From the NCBI RefSeq assembly GCF_002914585.1, contig NZ_PDDM01000001.1, positions 434,001 to 498,000 on the forward strand: a stretch of DNA of 64,000 nucleotides. The letters run 5' to 3'. The notes beneath the pieces were generated by a model, which did not search any database, was not told the DNA's origin, and was given only the letters and a program-made list of their open reading frames with translations. Position numbers and translations under genes: made by a program. This document shows, in pieces, positions 53,367 to 61,707 of the stretch. This stretch comes from Pseudanabaena sp. BC1403. Its GTDB lineage: Bacteria; Cyanobacteriota; Cyanobacteriia; Pseudanabaenales; Pseudanabaenaceae. Each line of letters starts with the position of its first letter. Positions within the stretch are counted from its first letter, which is position 1.

Positions 53367-53447
53367 ACAACCCATATTGTCATCGCCTCATTAACCTTAT
53401 TAATCTTCTGTTATTTTGGATGCCAAACTGGCGAAATATCTTTATCA

Positions 53448-53504
53448 TAATCTAGAGGATATGAGGGGCGGCGCTTTGCGCCGCCCCTCATATCCTCTAG
53501 ATTA
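53448..53504. repeat. Perfect 27-bp inverted repeat with TTT loop upstream of cbiM
   Basis: Arms 53448-53474 and 53478-53504, the longest perfect hairpin in the window. It ends 25 bp before the cbiM start. It can end transcripts from the channel gene or act in the cbiM leader; no cobalamin riboswitch or NikR-like site is seen. Confidence 0.75.
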
Positions 53505-53529
53505 CTATCCAAATACTTACGAGGCATTG

Positions 53530-54231
53530 ATGCTTTCTTTCCCAGTTTATTTGGCGATGCATATTCCCGATGGGTATCTGAGTTTACCTGTAAGTTTAGT
53601 CACAGGGGGCATTGCGATCGCCCTAATTGCCCTCTCTCTTAATCGAGTTCAGTCAGAATATAAGGAACGCACCGTTCCACTTATGGGCGTGAGTGCTGCT
53701 TTTATATTTGCTGCGCAGATGATTAATTTCCCAATTGTGGGTGGTACATCTGGACATTTGATGGGTGGAACTCTAGCTGGGATCTTGCTTGGCCCTTGGG
53801 CAGGTTCGTTAGTAATGTCAGTGGTCTTCATCGTGCAGTCCGTAATGTTTCAGGATGGGGGACTGACGGCTCTAGGCGCAAACATCACGATCATGGGATT
53901 AATTGGAACCTTTGGCGGTTATTATTTATATCGAGTGATTAGATTTTTGATTGGACGCAATACTTGGTTAGGCATGAGTGTTGGCACTGCGATCGCTTCA
54001 TGGACAAGTGTAGTTGTGGCGGCGGCAGTTTGTGCGTTGCTGTTGGCTCTTTCAGATACCGTTCCCTTGGCTCTAGGAATGACAGCTATGCTCTCTTGGC
54101 ATTTCATGATCGGCATTGGCGAAGCATTTATCACTCTCTCTGTAACTAGTTTTATCTGGAAGACTCGTCCTGAACTAATTTATGATGCACCTCTATCCGC
54201 AATTAAACAAACCGAATCAGATCATTTTTAG
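53530..54231 (+). CDS. cbiM: Cobalt/nickel ECF transporter substrate-binding subunit CbiM
   Basis: A 233-residue membrane protein with about six helices. It carries the metal-binding M-H-I-P-D-G-Y-L-S segment. In the family, the N-terminal Met-His coordinates the metal, so either a short leader (MLSFPVYLA) is removed or translation begins at the ATG of 53557. I list 53530 because GAGG lies just before it. Further signatures are GGTSGHLMGGTLAGILLGP and FMIGIGEAFIT. It heads a run of four genes (M, PDGLE, Q, O). Substrate: Co or Ni, not decided. Confidence 0.9.
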   Translation: MLSFPVYLAMHIPDGYLSLPVSLVTGGIAIALIALSLNRVQSEYKERTVPLMGVSAAFIFAAQMINFPIVGGTSGHLMGGTLAGILLGPWAGSLVMSVVFIVQSVMFQDGGLTALGANITIMGLIGTFGGYYLYRVIRFLIGRNTWLGMSVGTAIASWTSVVVAAAVCALLLALSDTVPLALGMTAMLSWHFMIGIGEAFITLSVTSFIWKTRPELIYDAPLSAIKQTESDHF

Positions 54232-54254
54232 GTTGCCATAAAAGCCATAAACAA

Positions 54255-54578
54255 ATGCATAAAAATCGTATTTTTCTATTCTCAGGATTAGCTCTAGCTC
54301 TAAGTATTGCTGCATTCATCTCACCTTTTGCTAGCAAAGATCCAGATGGATTAGATCGAGTTTCTCAAGATCTAAAATTTGAAGAAAAAGCTATTGAGAA
54401 CCCACCAACAAAACAACTTCCCTTTGCTAATATTTTTGATGAATATTCTGTCAAGACAGTTCCCGATCAGAAAGTATCCACAGCGATCGCAGGTATTACA
54501 GGGACATTAGTTGTATTTGGCTTGGCTTGGGGAGTTGGCAAACTCGCAGTACGAAAATCTGAACCAAAACAGAAATAG
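54255..54578 (+). CDS. PDGLE domain protein (CbiN/NikN-like subunit)
   Basis: A 107-residue protein with two membrane helices (4-24 and about 78-95) and a lumenal or periplasmic loop. The segment SKDPDGLDRVSQDLKFEEKA is the PDGLE signature found in NikN/CbiN-like accessory subunits of nickel and cobalt ECF transporters. It replaces a classic CbiN in this operon. It would help load metal onto CbiM. Confidence 0.85.
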   Translation: MHKNRIFLFSGLALALSIAAFISPFASKDPDGLDRVSQDLKFEEKAIENPPTKQLPFANIFDEYSVKTVPDQKVSTAIAGITGTLVVFGLAWGVGKLAVRKSEPKQK

Positions 54579-54588
54579 AGGACGAAAC

Positions 54589-54647
54589 ACAGTAAGTAGC
54601 TAGGTTGGGGGCACGCTGCGCGTATCCCCAACCTAGCTACTTACTGT
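54589..54647. repeat. Perfect 22-bp hairpin inside the metal transporter operon
   Basis: Arms 54589-54610 and 54626-54647, between the PDGLE gene and cbiQ. Since all genes run the same way, it may attenuate expression of cbiQ-cbiO or shield the 3' end of the upstream message. Confidence 0.65.
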
Positions 54648-54662
54648 TATGAAACTAAATCT

Positions 54663-55475
54663 ATGCTATTACATATTCACCTCATCGAGTCAAGTAATCA
54701 TCTATCTCAACCAAAGAGCGATCGCTTAAATTTATGGAATCGCTTAGCTGTACATACACGCTTGATCTGCATATTTCTATTGGTGTTTGCGATCGCCCTA
54801 ACTCCAATGGGTCGATGGTGGACTTGGGCAGTATATGGAGTTACTGTTTTGCCAATTCTCTACTGGAGTAAAGTTAGTTTAGGAATTCTCGCCAAACGTA
54901 TGGCGATCGAATTAGCCTTTATTAGCGTGATTCTATTAGGAACGCTCTTCCGTGGTGGTGGACAGATACTTTGGCAATGGGGATGGTTACAAATAACTAC
55001 CAATGGATTAATAATTTTAGGAAGTGTAAGTATCAAAGCATTTTTATCTTTACTACTATTAAATATTCTCACCCTCAGTACTTCCATTCCATTATTACTC
55101 CAAGCTCTAGTTACTCTCAAAATGCCTCCACTGTTAGTTAGCATTCTCGCCTCAATGTATCGCTACATTGGAGTCTTAACTAACGAATTTAATGCTATGC
55201 ATCGTGCGGCAACTGCCCGCAATTTTGCGCCACAAAACCTCTATAATCCCCAACGACATGATCGACCGTGGCAACGACAGGTACTAGGCAATATGTTAGG
55301 AGTTCTGTTTATCCGCACTTACGATCGCGGCGATCGCATTTATCAGGCGATGTTAGCACGCGGCTATCAAGGTACTCCAATCATGCTCGAATCAGTTACG
55401 AGCACATGGAGCGATCGCATGGCAATTGGTTGCGTTATGATTTTGATTATAGTCGGTCAAGTTTTTATTAGTTAA
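54663..55475 (+). CDS. cbiQ: ECF transporter transmembrane subunit CbiQ
   Basis: A 270-residue integral membrane protein with about five helices. The coupling helices that contact the ATPase contain A-x-x-A-R-N (AATARNFAPQNL) and A-R-G (AMLARGYQGTP), typical of CbiQ/EcfT. The ATG at 54663 is used; GC-rich hairpin sequence precedes it. The gene ends six bases before cbiO. Confidence 0.92.
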   Translation: MLLHIHLIESSNHLSQPKSDRLNLWNRLAVHTRLICIFLLVFAIALTPMGRWWTWAVYGVTVLPILYWSKVSLGILAKRMAIELAFISVILLGTLFRGGGQILWQWGWLQITTNGLIILGSVSIKAFLSLLLLNILTLSTSIPLLLQALVTLKMPPLLVSILASMYRYIGVLTNEFNAMHRAATARNFAPQNLYNPQRHDRPWQRQVLGNMLGVLFIRTYDRGDRIYQAMLARGYQGTPIMLESVTSTWSDRMAIGCVMILIIVGQVFIS

Positions 55476-55481
55476 AGCGCT

Positions 55482-56216
55482 TTGCATCACAATCCTATTT
55501 CTATTGAAAACCTCAGTTATTGCTATCCTGATGGTATTCAGGCGCTAAAAGGGATTAATCTCCAGATCGCTGCAACCGAGAGGGTGGGACTCATTGGAGC
55601 CAATGGTTCTGGAAAGTCAACATTACTTTTGCATCTGAACGGTATTCTCATGCCACAACAGGGCGAAATCGTGGTCGGTGAGATGGTCGTCAAGCCCAGC
55701 AATTTCGCCGCAATTCGGAATTTTGTTGGGCTAGTGTTTCAAAATCCAGATGATCAATTATTTATGCCAACGGTTTGGGAAGATGTTGCCTTTGGTTTAA
55801 TGAATCAAGGACTCCGAGGAGATGAGCTAAAAACAAGGGTAGCAGAGGCTTTGGTGGCAGTCGGGCTAGATGTTGCAAAATATCGAGAGAGGCTATCTCA
55901 TAATCTTTCTGGTGGTGAAAAGAAGAGAGTTGCGATCGCAGGGGTTTTAGCGATGCAGCCGCAGGTCTTAGTATTTGATGAGCCATCTGCCCAGCTCGAT
56001 CCGCGATCGCGCCGTCAGTTAATCCAGCTTTTGCATACTTTGCCCGAAACTCAATTAATTGCTACTCACGATTTGGACTTAGTTCTAGAGCTATGCGATC
56101 GCACTGTCGTCTTGAGTGAGGGTAAAATTGTCTATGATGGTGCGACAAAGAAGGTGTTATGCGATCGGGAATTTTTGTTGGAGCATTCTCTCGAAATGCC
56201 ATTAAGTCTAGGATAG
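55482..56216 (+). CDS. cbiO: ECF transporter ATPase CbiO
   Basis: A 244-residue ABC ATPase. Walker A GANGSGKS is at 39-46, the Q-loop in VFQNPDDQLF, the signature LSGGEKKRVA near 143, Walker B VLVFDEPSAQLD and the switch His in IATHDLDL. The QNPDDQLF segment and adjacent Q-helix are typical of the CbiO/EcfA group. The start is a TTG at 55482, six bases after cbiQ. It would form the engine of the CbiMQO-PDGLE transporter. Confidence 0.95.
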   Translation: MHHNPISIENLSYCYPDGIQALKGINLQIAATERVGLIGANGSGKSTLLLHLNGILMPQQGEIVVGEMVVKPSNFAAIRNFVGLVFQNPDDQLFMPTVWEDVAFGLMNQGLRGDELKTRVAEALVAVGLDVAKYRERLSHNLSGGEKKRVAIAGVLAMQPQVLVFDEPSAQLDPRSRRQLIQLLHTLPETQLIATHDLDLVLELCDRTVVLSEGKIVYDGATKKVLCDREFLLEHSLEMPLSLG

Positions 56217-58120: not shown

Positions 58121-60307
58121 TTACGTAGGGGCAACAATAACTATCCACAAAGCGATCGCTAAAATGACCGCACTCAAATGTTGAGGTATCAGCGATCGCC
58201 AAGGCTGCTTGGCAATCTTTTGCGTTAGCACCCATGTCAAAAGCACAGAGAAAATTAATGTGGTTCCTTGCAAAAAGGAAATTACCGCAGGATGAGCAAT
58301 AAAAATCGGCAATGTCGAACCATCCAGCCCAAAAGTCGCCCAAGTAACTGGTAACACCCGACCCGCCTCTTGGAGAAATAGACGTAAATAATGCGCTAGA
58401 TTTGCACCTAGAACTAAAGGTAAATATCCATAGGCGAGCTGGATAAACGATCTGGGTTTACAGGCTGTAATACTAAAAGGAAGCTGATTGTCTTCGCAAT
58501 TCTTTCTCCAGATAATTGTGAGAAAGTAGAGCGATCGCATGATCCCATAAGTAATTAAGGGAATTGCCGCAGCGACAATCAGAATGAGTAGAGATACTGC
58601 CAAATGGGGAAAGAATGCTGCTGTAATAGTCGGCAGACCAAAAAACGAGGTGATTTCTGGTAAGCGATGCAAAAATGCACCACCAAGCAGTAACAAGAGC
58701 AAAGCAACTTCATAGGTGCGTGGTACATGGGTTGTCCATAATTCAATTGCGGGAGGACGAAGATTAAACTCCACAGACCTATGGGGGCAAGCCTTGAGGC
58801 AAGTCATACATAGCACACAGTCTCGATTGTCTTGTAGTTGAGCAGGATGAGAATAAAGCGGACATCCATTTGTCTCTAGACCTTCGCCTTTTTTTACGCC
58901 GCCTTTATAGCATTGATAGGTCGTACATTCAGCCGAACAAGTTCCTTGTTGAGCGCGTAATTCCGTCATTGAGAGTTTTGCAAATAGTCCATTCATCCCT
59001 CCAATGGGACAGAGATAGCGACACCAGTACCTGCGTTCAAAAATCAGCGAACAGATCATCGCTCCTGCCGTAATCAATAGCAATAAATATGCAGAAAGAT
59101 AGGCAGTATTTTGTAAATCCCAAAGCTCTTCCCATAAGTAGATCAGCACAAATAGACCGAATAAAAACCATCCACCCCAACGTTCAGAAACATCTCGATT
59201 CCAATGTTTAAGCTGGCGTGGAAATAGCCATAGAGAGAGCCTCTGCACTACCTCTCCATAAATCATAAACGGACAGATAGAACACCATAGTCTTCCCACA
59301 AAGGGAAAGCTAATTAAAATTAATGGCCACCACCATGCCCAAAAAAAGTTAAGCGCAATATTTTGCTCGCGAGTTTGAGGAGCTAAAAACAGCATGGCAA
59401 CTACGATCGCAAAAAAAGCGAACGTAAATCCATAGTTAAGGCGATCAGGAAACCAGTCACTACGTAGAAACCGACGCAGATTAGGATAGACATTGAGTAG
59501 ATTAAAGCGAAACTTTTTACCCTTAGGTTGGGTTGACCAAAACACTGATTCGTTTAGCGATGGCGCACCCTGTGACTGTAATATTGCTCGTTCTACCAAT
59601 AATTGTAGTTCTTTTAAATTTCCTGTGAAATCATAGCTTTGGAGGCCACGTAGAGCTTCAGCAGTAATAGTTGGTTTAGGAATACCGCGATCGCGACAGA
59701 ACAAACTTATGTAATATTCCACATGTGGTTTAATATCGGCTTTTCGCACTCTCAGCGATGGAACCTTGATCGAATGTTTAACATATGACTCACAGGTAGA
59801 TTGACGTTTTTCAGAGACCATAATGATCCGCGATTCACAGGTTAAAGGCGCATCGGTTGCATTACTTCCGACTCGTCTAAAAGTTCCGTTTTTTAGAAGC
59901 TGCACAATCTGGGGGCGCAATTCATTGGGTAGCTCTTGGATGTTATTTAAAACTAGAGTTCCTTTTCCCAAATATGTTAATAGTCCATGATTGCCATCTG
60001 CACGTCCAAATAAATCTGCACCACTGGTTTGGACAAGGCTGCAATTTACTTTTGCGATCGCTTCCCGTCTATATGCCGAATTAAAATGAATCAAAGCCGC
60101 AATATTATCTTTATCCAGTCCAGGTTCGCCAAGAATCAATACTGGCTGCCGATCTTCACTGGCACTTTTAATCTCTTGACGAAGCCTCATCGCATAGCGA
60201 CTCTTTCCAATAATTCCTCGCTCAGCCTTGGTAATTAGATAGGGCTGCAAAACCTGCGATCGATCTTGTATCCACTCTAAAGAAATTTCAGAATAATTGG
60301 AAGACAT
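58121..60307 (-). CDS. Degenerate NtrC-type AAA+ domain fused to a membrane polyferredoxin
   Basis: A 728-residue fusion. Residues of about 30-250 align with the AAA+ domain of sigma-54 activators, but the P-loop reads GEPGLDKD (60-67) instead of G-E-x-G-T-G-K-E, Walker B reads LVLNNIQEL (N121-N122 for D-E), and the GAFTGA loop is absent. There is no DNA-binding domain. From about 290 on there are multiple membrane helices and Cys motifs: WCSICPF, YWCRYLCPIGG, CSAECTTYQCYKGG and the ferredoxin-type CVLCMTCLKACPH. This part resembles NapH/NosR/CcoG-type 4Fe-4S proteins. Likely a membrane redox sensor or electron conduit with a pseudo-ATPase cap. The ATG at 60307 is the start. Confidence 0.82.
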   Translation of the reverse strand: MSSNYSEISLEWIQDRSQVLQPYLITKAERGIIGKSRYAMRLRQEIKSASEDRQPVLILGEPGLDKDNIAALIHFNSAYRREAIAKVNCSLVQTSGADLFGRADGNHGLLTYLGKGTLVLNNIQELPNELRPQIVQLLKNGTFRRVGSNATDAPLTCESRIIMVSEKRQSTCESYVKHSIKVPSLRVRKADIKPHVEYYISLFCRDRGIPKPTITAEALRGLQSYDFTGNLKELQLLVERAILQSQGAPSLNESVFWSTQPKGKKFRFNLLNVYPNLRRFLRSDWFPDRLNYGFTFAFFAIVVAMLFLAPQTREQNIALNFFWAWWWPLILISFPFVGRLWCSICPFMIYGEVVQRLSLWLFPRQLKHWNRDVSERWGGWFLFGLFVLIYLWEELWDLQNTAYLSAYLLLLITAGAMICSLIFERRYWCRYLCPIGGMNGLFAKLSMTELRAQQGTCSAECTTYQCYKGGVKKGEGLETNGCPLYSHPAQLQDNRDCVLCMTCLKACPHRSVEFNLRPPAIELWTTHVPRTYEVALLLLLLGGAFLHRLPEITSFFGLPTITAAFFPHLAVSLLILIVAAAIPLITYGIMRSLYFLTIIWRKNCEDNQLPFSITACKPRSFIQLAYGYLPLVLGANLAHYLRLFLQEAGRVLPVTWATFGLDGSTLPIFIAHPAVISFLQGTTLIFSVLLTWVLTQKIAKQPWRSLIPQHLSAVILAIALWIVIVAPT

Positions 60308-60382: not shown

Positions 60383-60536
60383 TTTAGGACTTACGCAAAT
60401 CAACCAAGAACTAAAGTTCTTGGCTCAAAGCTCAAGTCAGTTAAAACTGACTAAAGAAAGCCTCAAACCAACCTGTTTCAACAGGTTTAAGCTTTTAGCC
60501 CGCAATTTATTGCAGGGCAGATGCGTAAGTCCTAAA
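60383..60536. mobile_element. 154-bp MITE with 15-bp terminal inverted repeats
   Basis: The ends are TTTAGGACTTACGCA (60383-60397) and its perfect complement (60522-60536). Inside lie four small hairpins: CCAAGAACT/AGTTCTTGG, AGTCAGTT/AACTGACT, AACCTGT/ACAGGTT and GCCCGCAAT/TTGCAGGGC. Terminal repeats of the AGGACTTACGCA type are common in cyanobacterial insertion elements. It has no coding capacity. Confidence 0.7.
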
Positions 60537-60702
60537 CTTCTTTTTGTTCTAGATTGAGCGAAAAGCATTGTAATAAAACTGGCGACAGCAACACCTTAAT
60601 TACTGACTTTTTCTTGTTTCGCCAAGTGATAATCAATGCGAGTATAACCCTCTAAATAAACACTACATCTAAACGAGATCATGGTGTAAAAGGAAGAGAC
60701 AT
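60537..60702. other. Leader of the pentapeptide gene
   Basis: No gene seen. An AGGAAGAG ribosome binding sequence lies at 60691-60698, just before the ATG of the next gene. Confidence 0.5.
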
Positions 60703-61707
60703 ATGGGAAACTCAGAACATCTTGCGATACTGAAACAAGGAGCAGCCAGTTGGAATAGATGGCGACTAGAAAATCCTGAGATTATCCCTAATTTGAGTGG
60801 TACTAACTTAAGACGTGCCAATCTCCGCGAAGCAGATTTGAGTGGAGTAAACTTGCGCTGGACAAATTTGAGTAATGCTAATTTATTAGGTGCGAATCTC
60901 AGTGGTTCTGATCTCGTAAAAGCAAATTTGCGAGAAGCAGATTTGTATAAAGTAAATCTTAAAGATGCTGAGGTGAGTGGAGCCTATTTGAGCAAAGCTC
61001 ATCTAAGAGAAGCTTGTTTAGAAAGATGCGATCTGAGTATGGCAAACTTACAAGGAGCCGATCTTACTAAAGCTCATTTTAATGGTGCTAATTTGAGTGG
61101 TGCAGACTTAGACGAAAGTGATTTGAGCAATGCCAATTTAAGTGAGACAAACTTAAGCAATGCCATTTTGAGCAATGTTAATCTCACAAATGCTGATCTC
61201 CACCGCAGTGATTTAACTAACGCAAATCTAGAATTTGCTGATCTTAGTAATAGCAATCTGTCAGACTCAAAGCTTTACAACGCAAATCTGAGCAATGCCA
61301 ATTTGCAAGAATGTGATTTGAGTAATGCTGCTATTAATCAGGCTAATCTTTGTCATGCTAACTTAGCTGATGCAATTCTCAGTAATGCCAATTTAAGTAA
61401 TGCTAATTTAAGGCACGCAAATTTAAAAAATGCGGTTCTGAGCAATGCAATTCTGAGCAATGCTGATCTGAGTGATAGTAATTTGGAAGATACAATCTTA
61501 AGTGATGCAATTTTAAGTAATGCAAATTTAAACGGGGCAATTTTGACAGGAGCACAACTGGTTTCAGCAAAACTAGATGCTGCATTTTTGATTGGTACTA
61601 ATTTAGTTAAAGCTAATTTACGACTTGCCAATCTGAATGGAGTTAGTTTATCTGAAGCAAATCTATTTGGAACGATTATGCCCGATGGTTCGATCCATAA
61701 TCATTAA
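60703..61707 (+). CDS. Pentapeptide repeat protein
   Basis: A 334-residue protein. Residues 1-30 form a conserved cap (HLAILKQGAASWNRWRLENP) seen in many cyanobacterial pentapeptide proteins. From residue 31 to the end it consists of about 58 consecutive pentapeptides (consensus ANLSN, with ADLSG and AILSN variants), which should fold as a quadrilateral beta-helix of some 14-15 turns. The function is not known; members may act in scaffolding, DNA mimicry or light adaptation. An AGGAAGAG ribosome binding site precedes the ATG. Confidence 0.9.
   Translation: MGNSEHLAILKQGAASWNRWRLENPEIIPNLSGTNLRRANLREADLSGVNLRWTNLSNANLLGANLSGSDLVKANLREADLYKVNLKDAEVSGAYLSKAHLREACLERCDLSMANLQGADLTKAHFNGANLSGADLDESDLSNANLSETNLSNAILSNVNLTNADLHRSDLTNANLEFADLSNSNLSDSKLYNANLSNANLQECDLSNAAINQANLCHANLADAILSNANLSNANLRHANLKNAVLSNAILSNADLSDSNLEDTILSDAILSNANLNGAILTGAQLVSAKLDAAFLIGTNLVKANLRLANLNGVSLSEANLFGTIMPDGSIHNH

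Follow-up and report, generated by a model that had tools for sequence, protein, structure and literature searches.

The window analysed here (the whole stretch of DNA, 64,000 nucleotides from Pseudanabaena sp. BC1403) contains a gene for a protein in which a catalytically degenerate AAA+ domain of the NtrC type is fused to a NapH-like membrane polyferredoxin. The AAA+ part is under strong purifying selection, and its sequence marks it as a conserved pseudo-ATPase in which the P-loop has very likely kept a ligand. A sigma-54 activator motor has been kept by selection in a bacterial class without sigma-54, joined to an electron-carrying membrane protein, and it is because cyanobacteria offer the motor no sigma-54 to act on that such a disabled-motor fusion matters. 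With its fixed NN Walker B and its modified yet fixed P-loop, the family offers a clean natural case for studying pseudo-AAA+ function. The parts, degenerate bEBPs and NapH-like polyferredoxins, are known; their combination in one protein, maintained throughout a class that has no sigma-54 system, appears to be undescribed, and we found no published description of the family in the open-access literature.

A fused protein family in cyanobacteria

The 728-residue reading frame carries both motifs quoted in an initial annotation made from the sequence alone, namely GEPGLDKD (residues 60-67) and N121-N122 (Table 1). Both halves of the proposed fusion are recognised in the window protein: Pfam finds Sigma54_activat (1.6e-16, residues 31-166) and AAA_lid_14 (2.5e-10), which place the AAA+ domain with its lid at residues 31-246, as well as Fer4_5 (2.7e-9), and NCBIfam finds NapH/MauN (TIGR02163, 1.2e-12). 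A single copy of the gene is present in the host genome (5.5 Mb, 99.96% complete), and no paralogue of the membrane half was found there. A relative occurs in 104 of the 386 genomes sampled from the phylum, and all 104 belong to the class of the window's genome. Since full-length relatives occur in complete genomes across this class, the fusion is neither a chance event nor an assembly error.

Table 1. Features of the fusion gene, in positions of the window
Feature	Position	Strand	Remarks
Whole gene, pseudo-AAA+/NapH-like polyferredoxin fusion	58121..60307	-	728 aa
NtrC/bEBP-type AAA+, core and AAA_lid_14, catalytically degenerate; residues 30-250	59558..60220	-	Pfam, AF2, dN/dS
Modified P-loop, residues 58-68, ending G-E-P-G-L-D-K-D-N	60104..60136	-	K66 invariant; most members have D/E for the third Gly
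Deletion site of the loop for sigma-54 contact (L1/GAFTGA), residues 101-116	59960..60007	-	15 residues vs 23 in NifA
Walker B, residues 117-124	59936..59959	-	N121-N122 where D-E is expected
NapH-like membrane module TM1-TM4, residues 285-422	59042..59455	-	NapH/MauN match; AF2 helices
C-x2-C-P at the cytosolic end of TM2, residues 342-345	59273..59284	-	Invariant, 131/131
C-x3-C-P past TM4, residues 429-433	59009..59023	-	Invariant, 131/131; cf. NapH/NosR CX3CP (PMC5928378)
Soluble ferredoxin part, residues 457-507	58787..58939	-	Two predicted [4Fe-4S] clusters from C457x3Cx4Cx15CP and C497x2Cx2Cx3CP
C-terminal helices TM5-TM9, residues 531-725	58133..58717	-	AF2 helices; no solved relative found

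The family set comprises 131 members, and conservation of the AAA+ domain was assessed over its 127 distinct sequences. A tree of 90 members, built from the membrane part only and so independent of the AAA+ motifs, resolves three groups: clade A, the type of the window protein, whose nearest named relatives are from Pseudanabaena; clade B, fully supported with 23 rows in the tree and about 42% identical to the window protein; and clade C, from Synechococcus/Cyanobium-type genomes. An N-terminal extension of at least 110 residues is present in 103 of the 131 members, and in the members tested (L010, L039 and L041) it matches cNMP_binding above the Pfam cut-off (45.7-54 bits). The usual architecture of the family, which the initial annotation did not capture, is a CRP-like sensor followed by an NtrC-type AAA+ domain and a NapH-like membrane polyferredoxin. 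Pfam finds no cNMP_binding domain in the window protein, and tblastn detected no CRP-like remnant upstream of its gene; the sensor is ancestral and was lost in the genus Pseudanabaena. Some members bear database names such as "nitrogen assimilation regulatory protein", which are misleading.

In two picocyanobacterial genomes, the family gene appears split into two overlapping reading frames (L051:6138-8197 and L052:6880-8860). The apparent split in one genome (G257) lies within the ferredoxin region, and in the other (G342) it falls between the AAA+ and membrane halves. Since the halves appear as separate reading frames in G342, the covalent link between them may be dispensable.

A pseudo-AAA+ domain without sigma-54

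The predicted structure of the AAA+ domain, a check that the initial annotation had suggested, is confident (AF2, pLDDT ~93 over residues 30-250), and its best structural matches are all bEBPs. The closest are FleQ (6jdi, VIA Z 25.0) and NtrC1 (1ny5, 24.7), which superpose with an rmsd of 2.2-2.3 over 226-227 residues. As had been read from the single sequence, the sigma-54 contact loop is gone: it is 8 residues shorter than that of NifA, and a GAFTGA-like motif (G-x-F-[TSP]-G) occurs in none of the 131 members. The replacement of Walker B D-E by N121-N122 likewise proved to be a fixed feature, with NN in about 98% of clade A (N in 92/93 at the first position and 91/93 at the second). Aspartate occupies the first position in 16 of 27 clade B and 6 of 7 clade C sequences, and the second position is N in all 27 of clade B. 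Furthermore, no conserved arginine was seen in the arginine finger region, and the sensor II position is variable in clades A and B.

The P-loop had been described as lost, which is too strong, because the Walker A lysine is kept and lies in the best-conserved stretch of the domain. K66 is invariant in the 127 distinct sequences of all three clades, and residues 58-68 have the lowest entropy among the 211 eleven-residue windows of the AAA+ domain. The clade A pattern is G-E-P-G-L-[E/D/G/N]-K-D-N; of its 93 sequences, 59 have glutamate at the position of the third glycine, 18 glycine, 14 aspartate and 2 asparagine. An acidic residue there, as in most clade A members, could block nucleotide. Clade B, on the other hand, has a textbook GxPGTGKT. 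Of the features that the initial annotation had named as evidence against a disabled motor, an intact Walker A was found in clade B and a GAFTGA loop in no member. Within Pseudanabaena, dN/dS of the AAA+ part is around 0.05 (0.04-0.07), about as low as that of the membrane part or lower. The invariant lysine and the conservation of the P-loop suggest a retained ligand and no hydrolysis. Of the earlier idea of a dead nucleotide-binding cap, the non-catalytic part stands with the Walker B NN, but the invariant lysine speaks against a site that is dead throughout; given this lysine, the conservation of the P-loop over the rest of the domain and the clade B GxPGTGKT, a domain that binds nucleotide but does not hydrolyse it is the better fit.

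bEBPs usually have a C-terminal DNA-binding domain, although a few are without one. No HTH or other DNA-binding domain was found in any member tested, and by Pfam and AF2 the lid of the AAA+ domain leads straight into TM1, in agreement with the first reading of the sequence. Of the features of a bEBP, the window protein has the NtrC-type AAA+ fold and lacks the GAFTGA loop, the Walker B D-E, a C-terminal DNA-binding domain and an rpoN gene in its genome. A survey of 29 genomes reported cyanobacteria to be without sigma-54 and its activators (PMC3162934). In the present analysis, PF04552 has no match in the host genome and none above the cut-off in 384 of the 386 sampled genomes. One of the two exceptions is a fragment-like 202-aa reading frame in a cyanobacterial genome (L156:1459-2067 in G125), which matches the sigma-54 DNA-binding domain at 62 bits and has an RpoN-box-like TRRTVTKYCK, with the rest of sigma-54 absent.

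The membrane Fe-S half

The membrane half holds 12 cysteines, all present in 131 of 131 members, in the sets C342-x2-C345-P, C429-x3-C433-P, C457-x3-C461-x4-C466-x15-C482-P and C497-x2-C500-x2-C503-x3-C507-P; the initial view of a NapH-like half with intact Cys clusters is borne out by these and by the NapH/MauN match. Counts of K and R in the loops favour the cytosolic side for all 12. The ferredoxin region is the best-conserved part of the protein, with a median identity to the window protein of 90% within clade A, compared with 57% for the AAA+ domain. Its pLDDT is low over residues 455-492 (AF2), as expected for a model without metal. When a solved relative of the membrane half was sought, a sequence profile gave only ferredoxin-like fragments, and a fold search with this half alone gave nothing convincing.

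Like the window half, NapH/MauN, NosR and RdhC/PceC have a four-helix module with paired Cys-x-CP motifs, and a ferredoxin domain with two clusters comes after it (topology per PMC5928378). Quinol oxidation has been proposed for the membrane module of NapH, and function depends on the CX3CP motifs of NapH and on the first one of NosR (PMC5928378). The window protein is related to NapH/MauN but is not a member, scoring 48 bits against a TIGR02163 cut-off of 213. Whereas NapH has two CX3CP motifs, the window protein has one CX2CP (342-346) and one CX3CP (429-434), and it further differs in its first ferredoxin set (Cx3Cx4Cx15CP), in five extra C-terminal helices and in the AAA+ domain in front. 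It also lacks the N-terminal exported FMN-binding domain of NosR/RdhC and has the AAA+ N-terminus instead. FtrD of the FtrABCD iron uptake system has a NapH-like module that is 25% identical to the window half over 206 aa and shares part of the Cys pattern, but it has no AAA+ domain and no similarity to TM5-9; a relative of the FtrD type in Rhizobium lies in an ftrABCD-like gene order.

The nearest known form is a standalone "4Fe-4S binding protein" on plasmid pDFI1 of Deinococcus ficus, which aligns over the whole membrane half (30% identity over 466 aa) with all 12 cysteines but has neither an AAA+ nor a CRP-like domain. It adjoins a His-rich exported protein and DUF3105; the reading frame upstream, considered as a possible separate AAA+ part, is that His-rich protein. 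On a plasmid of Sulfurovum mangrovi (L155:6061-11291), a distant homologue of this half carries a long His-rich domain at its C-terminus; next to it come genes for another 4Fe-4S protein, a member of the 2-hydroxyacyl-CoA dehydratase family and an activase of acyl-CoA dehydratase, in that order. The gene contexts of haloarchaeal homologues were uninformative.

On the AAA+ side, VpsR, TyrR, HupR and YplP likewise have an NtrC-type AAA+ domain without GAFTGA, and VpsR also has an altered Walker B; the first three were listed as degenerate activators by Francke et al. (PMC3162934). These four are soluble DNA-binding regulators, whereas the window AAA+ has no DNA-binding domain and is tethered to an Fe-S membrane protein.

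Gene neighbourhoods of the clades

A search for conserved neighbours, suggested by the initial annotation, found none for clade A beyond close relatives over 63 loci. The context of clade B, which the earlier picture left out, points to islands related to sulfide and low oxygen. It was compared over 27 loci, and since the neighbouring gene lies beyond the end of some short contigs, the counts are lower bounds. A cysteine synthase gene (cysK, PALP family) is present in at least 18 of the 27 loci; in 17 it lies directly downstream on the same strand, in 12 of them with a gap of at most 50 bp. Other neighbours are, in at least the numbers of loci given, rhodanese (14), Rieske PetC (7), ArsR regulators (6), NUDIX (6), cydAB (5), TauE-like proteins (5), SQR-like pyridine-nucleotide-disulfide oxidoreductases (4) and psbA (4). 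Gene sets of this kind accompany sulfide-driven photosynthesis in cyanobacteria, for which PMC5061849 describes sqr with arsR and psbA variants; in PCC 7002, polysulfide induces rhod, tauE and cysK2 (PMC12466478). The present family is not mentioned in the passages searched in either source. Such islands surround clade B genes at L153, L154, L132, L129 and L041, with additional psbA and Rieske genes, and two of the islands are on plasmids, in Aulosira laxa NIES-50 and Pseudanabaena galeata.

Possible functions of the fusion

A redox sensor or electron-transfer role, as supposed from the outset, is plausible. Our leading reading, proposed tentatively and with somewhat less than even confidence, is that the protein serves in the membrane as a redox relay or sensor and that an AAA+ assembly, binding nucleotide without hydrolysing it, acts as its gate. 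Its C-terminal half is a NapH-like polyferredoxin, made of TM1-4, a cytosolic two-cluster ferredoxin domain and the helical module TM5-9, and would carry electrons from or to the quinone pool in exchange with redox partners in the cytosol. The AAA+ domain, which has lost the motifs for hydrolysis and for contact with sigma-54, would bind nucleotide and oligomerise, and nucleotide occupancy, together with the CRP-like sensor in most relatives, would be linked to how far the Fe-S chain is reduced, so as to gate electron flow or to relay this state to a cytosolic partner. The invariant cysteines, the alignment of the membrane half with the Deinococcus protein and with NapH models, the confident AAA+ fold, the invariant K66 in the best-conserved stretch, the fixed Walker B NN and the deleted GAFTGA loop argue for it, as do the low dN/dS of the AAA+ part, the sulfide/low-oxygen neighbours of clade B and the cytosolic side of the clusters; the CRP-like domain of most relatives suggests a signal input. 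Against it count the lack of a known output partner or regulated target, the lack of conserved clade A neighbours, the absence of the CRP-like domain from Pseudanabaena and the Synechococcus/Cyanobium clade, the separate halves in G342, the acidic residue in place of the third P-loop glycine in most of clade A, and the clade B operon with cysK, for which signalling alone gives no reason.

In the main rival, possible though rather unlikely, the protein would be mainly an enzyme, an electron conduit (NapH, FtrD-like) linked to quinol or ferredoxin and feeding sulfur or metal reduction, with the AAA+ domain as a structural oligomerising cap and no signalling. The gene stands directly upstream of cysteine synthase in 17 clade B loci as if supplying substrate, NapH is itself an electron conduit, the FtrD-type relative sits in an iron-uptake operon, and the 12 cysteines are strictly conserved. 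However, a mere cap needs no P-loop, and it is the P-loop rather than the fold in general that is best conserved in the AAA+ domain; moreover, the CRP-like sensor of most members points to regulation, and clade A has no enzyme neighbours. If the AAA+ domain were instead active through unusual catalytic residues and served Fe-S or metal centres as a metallochaperone or remodelling motor, much as NorQ/CbbQ do, the invariant Lys, the GxPGTGKT of clade B and the Walker B Asp in 16/27 of clade B and 6/7 of clade C would be accounted for. This is improbable given N at the Walker B Glu position in all 27 clade B sequences and in 91 of the 93 from clade A, the lack of a conserved finger arginine, the unconserved sensor II in clades A and B, and structural matches that are all bEBPs.

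Direct control of genes by a transcription regulator that is tethered to the membrane and independent of sigma-54, as in VpsR and TyrR-type proteins, is suggested by VpsR being the top PDB sequence match (2.5e-20), with a Walker B of LLLND and no GAFTGA, and by the precedent of VpsR, TyrR and HupR as degenerate activators (PMC3162934). It is very improbable because a DNA-binding domain is absent from the members tested, with the lid leading into TM1, and the Fe-S membrane half is far better conserved than the AAA+ domain. The loss of all sigma-54 functions and the standalone membrane half in Deinococcus would also suit an AAA+ domain that is a neutral relic on a working membrane protein; we reject this, with hardly any probability left to it, on the AAA+ dN/dS, and NN and K66 are fixed across the clade.

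If the redox-switch reading is true, cyanobacteria would have a way, missing from current models, of sensing or directing electron flow in the membrane, with one branch tied to sulfide-driven photosynthesis. A bolder proposal, which we consider unlikely as a whole, is a cyanobacterial signalling class in which a nucleotide-bound, non-hydrolysing bEBP-type AAA+ ring would act as the cytosolic switch of a membrane Fe-S chain, reading quinone/sulfide redox and nucleotide state jointly without a transcription factor or sigma-54, and in which the sister branch would be specialised for sulfide/anoxygenic photosynthesis and coupled to cysteine synthase.

Surroundings of the gene in Pseudanabaena

The window gene is flanked by a convergent glycosyltransferase gene and a divergent gene (60703-61707) for a 334-aa pentapeptide-repeat protein, which adjoins the family gene in several other Pseudanabaena too. 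About 2 kb past its 3' end lies a CbiM/CbiN/CbiQ/CbiO-like cobalt/nickel uptake operon (53416-56216), which among the compared loci is common only to Pseudanabaena. The glycosyltransferase and cbiMNQO were rejected as operon partners, being arrangements at the level of Pseudanabaena only. In addition, a palindromic MITE-like element with TTTAGGACTTACGCA ends (60383-60540) lies 76 bp upstream of the start codon, and its own genome contains about 40 copies of this element, about 15 of which are at least 94% identical.
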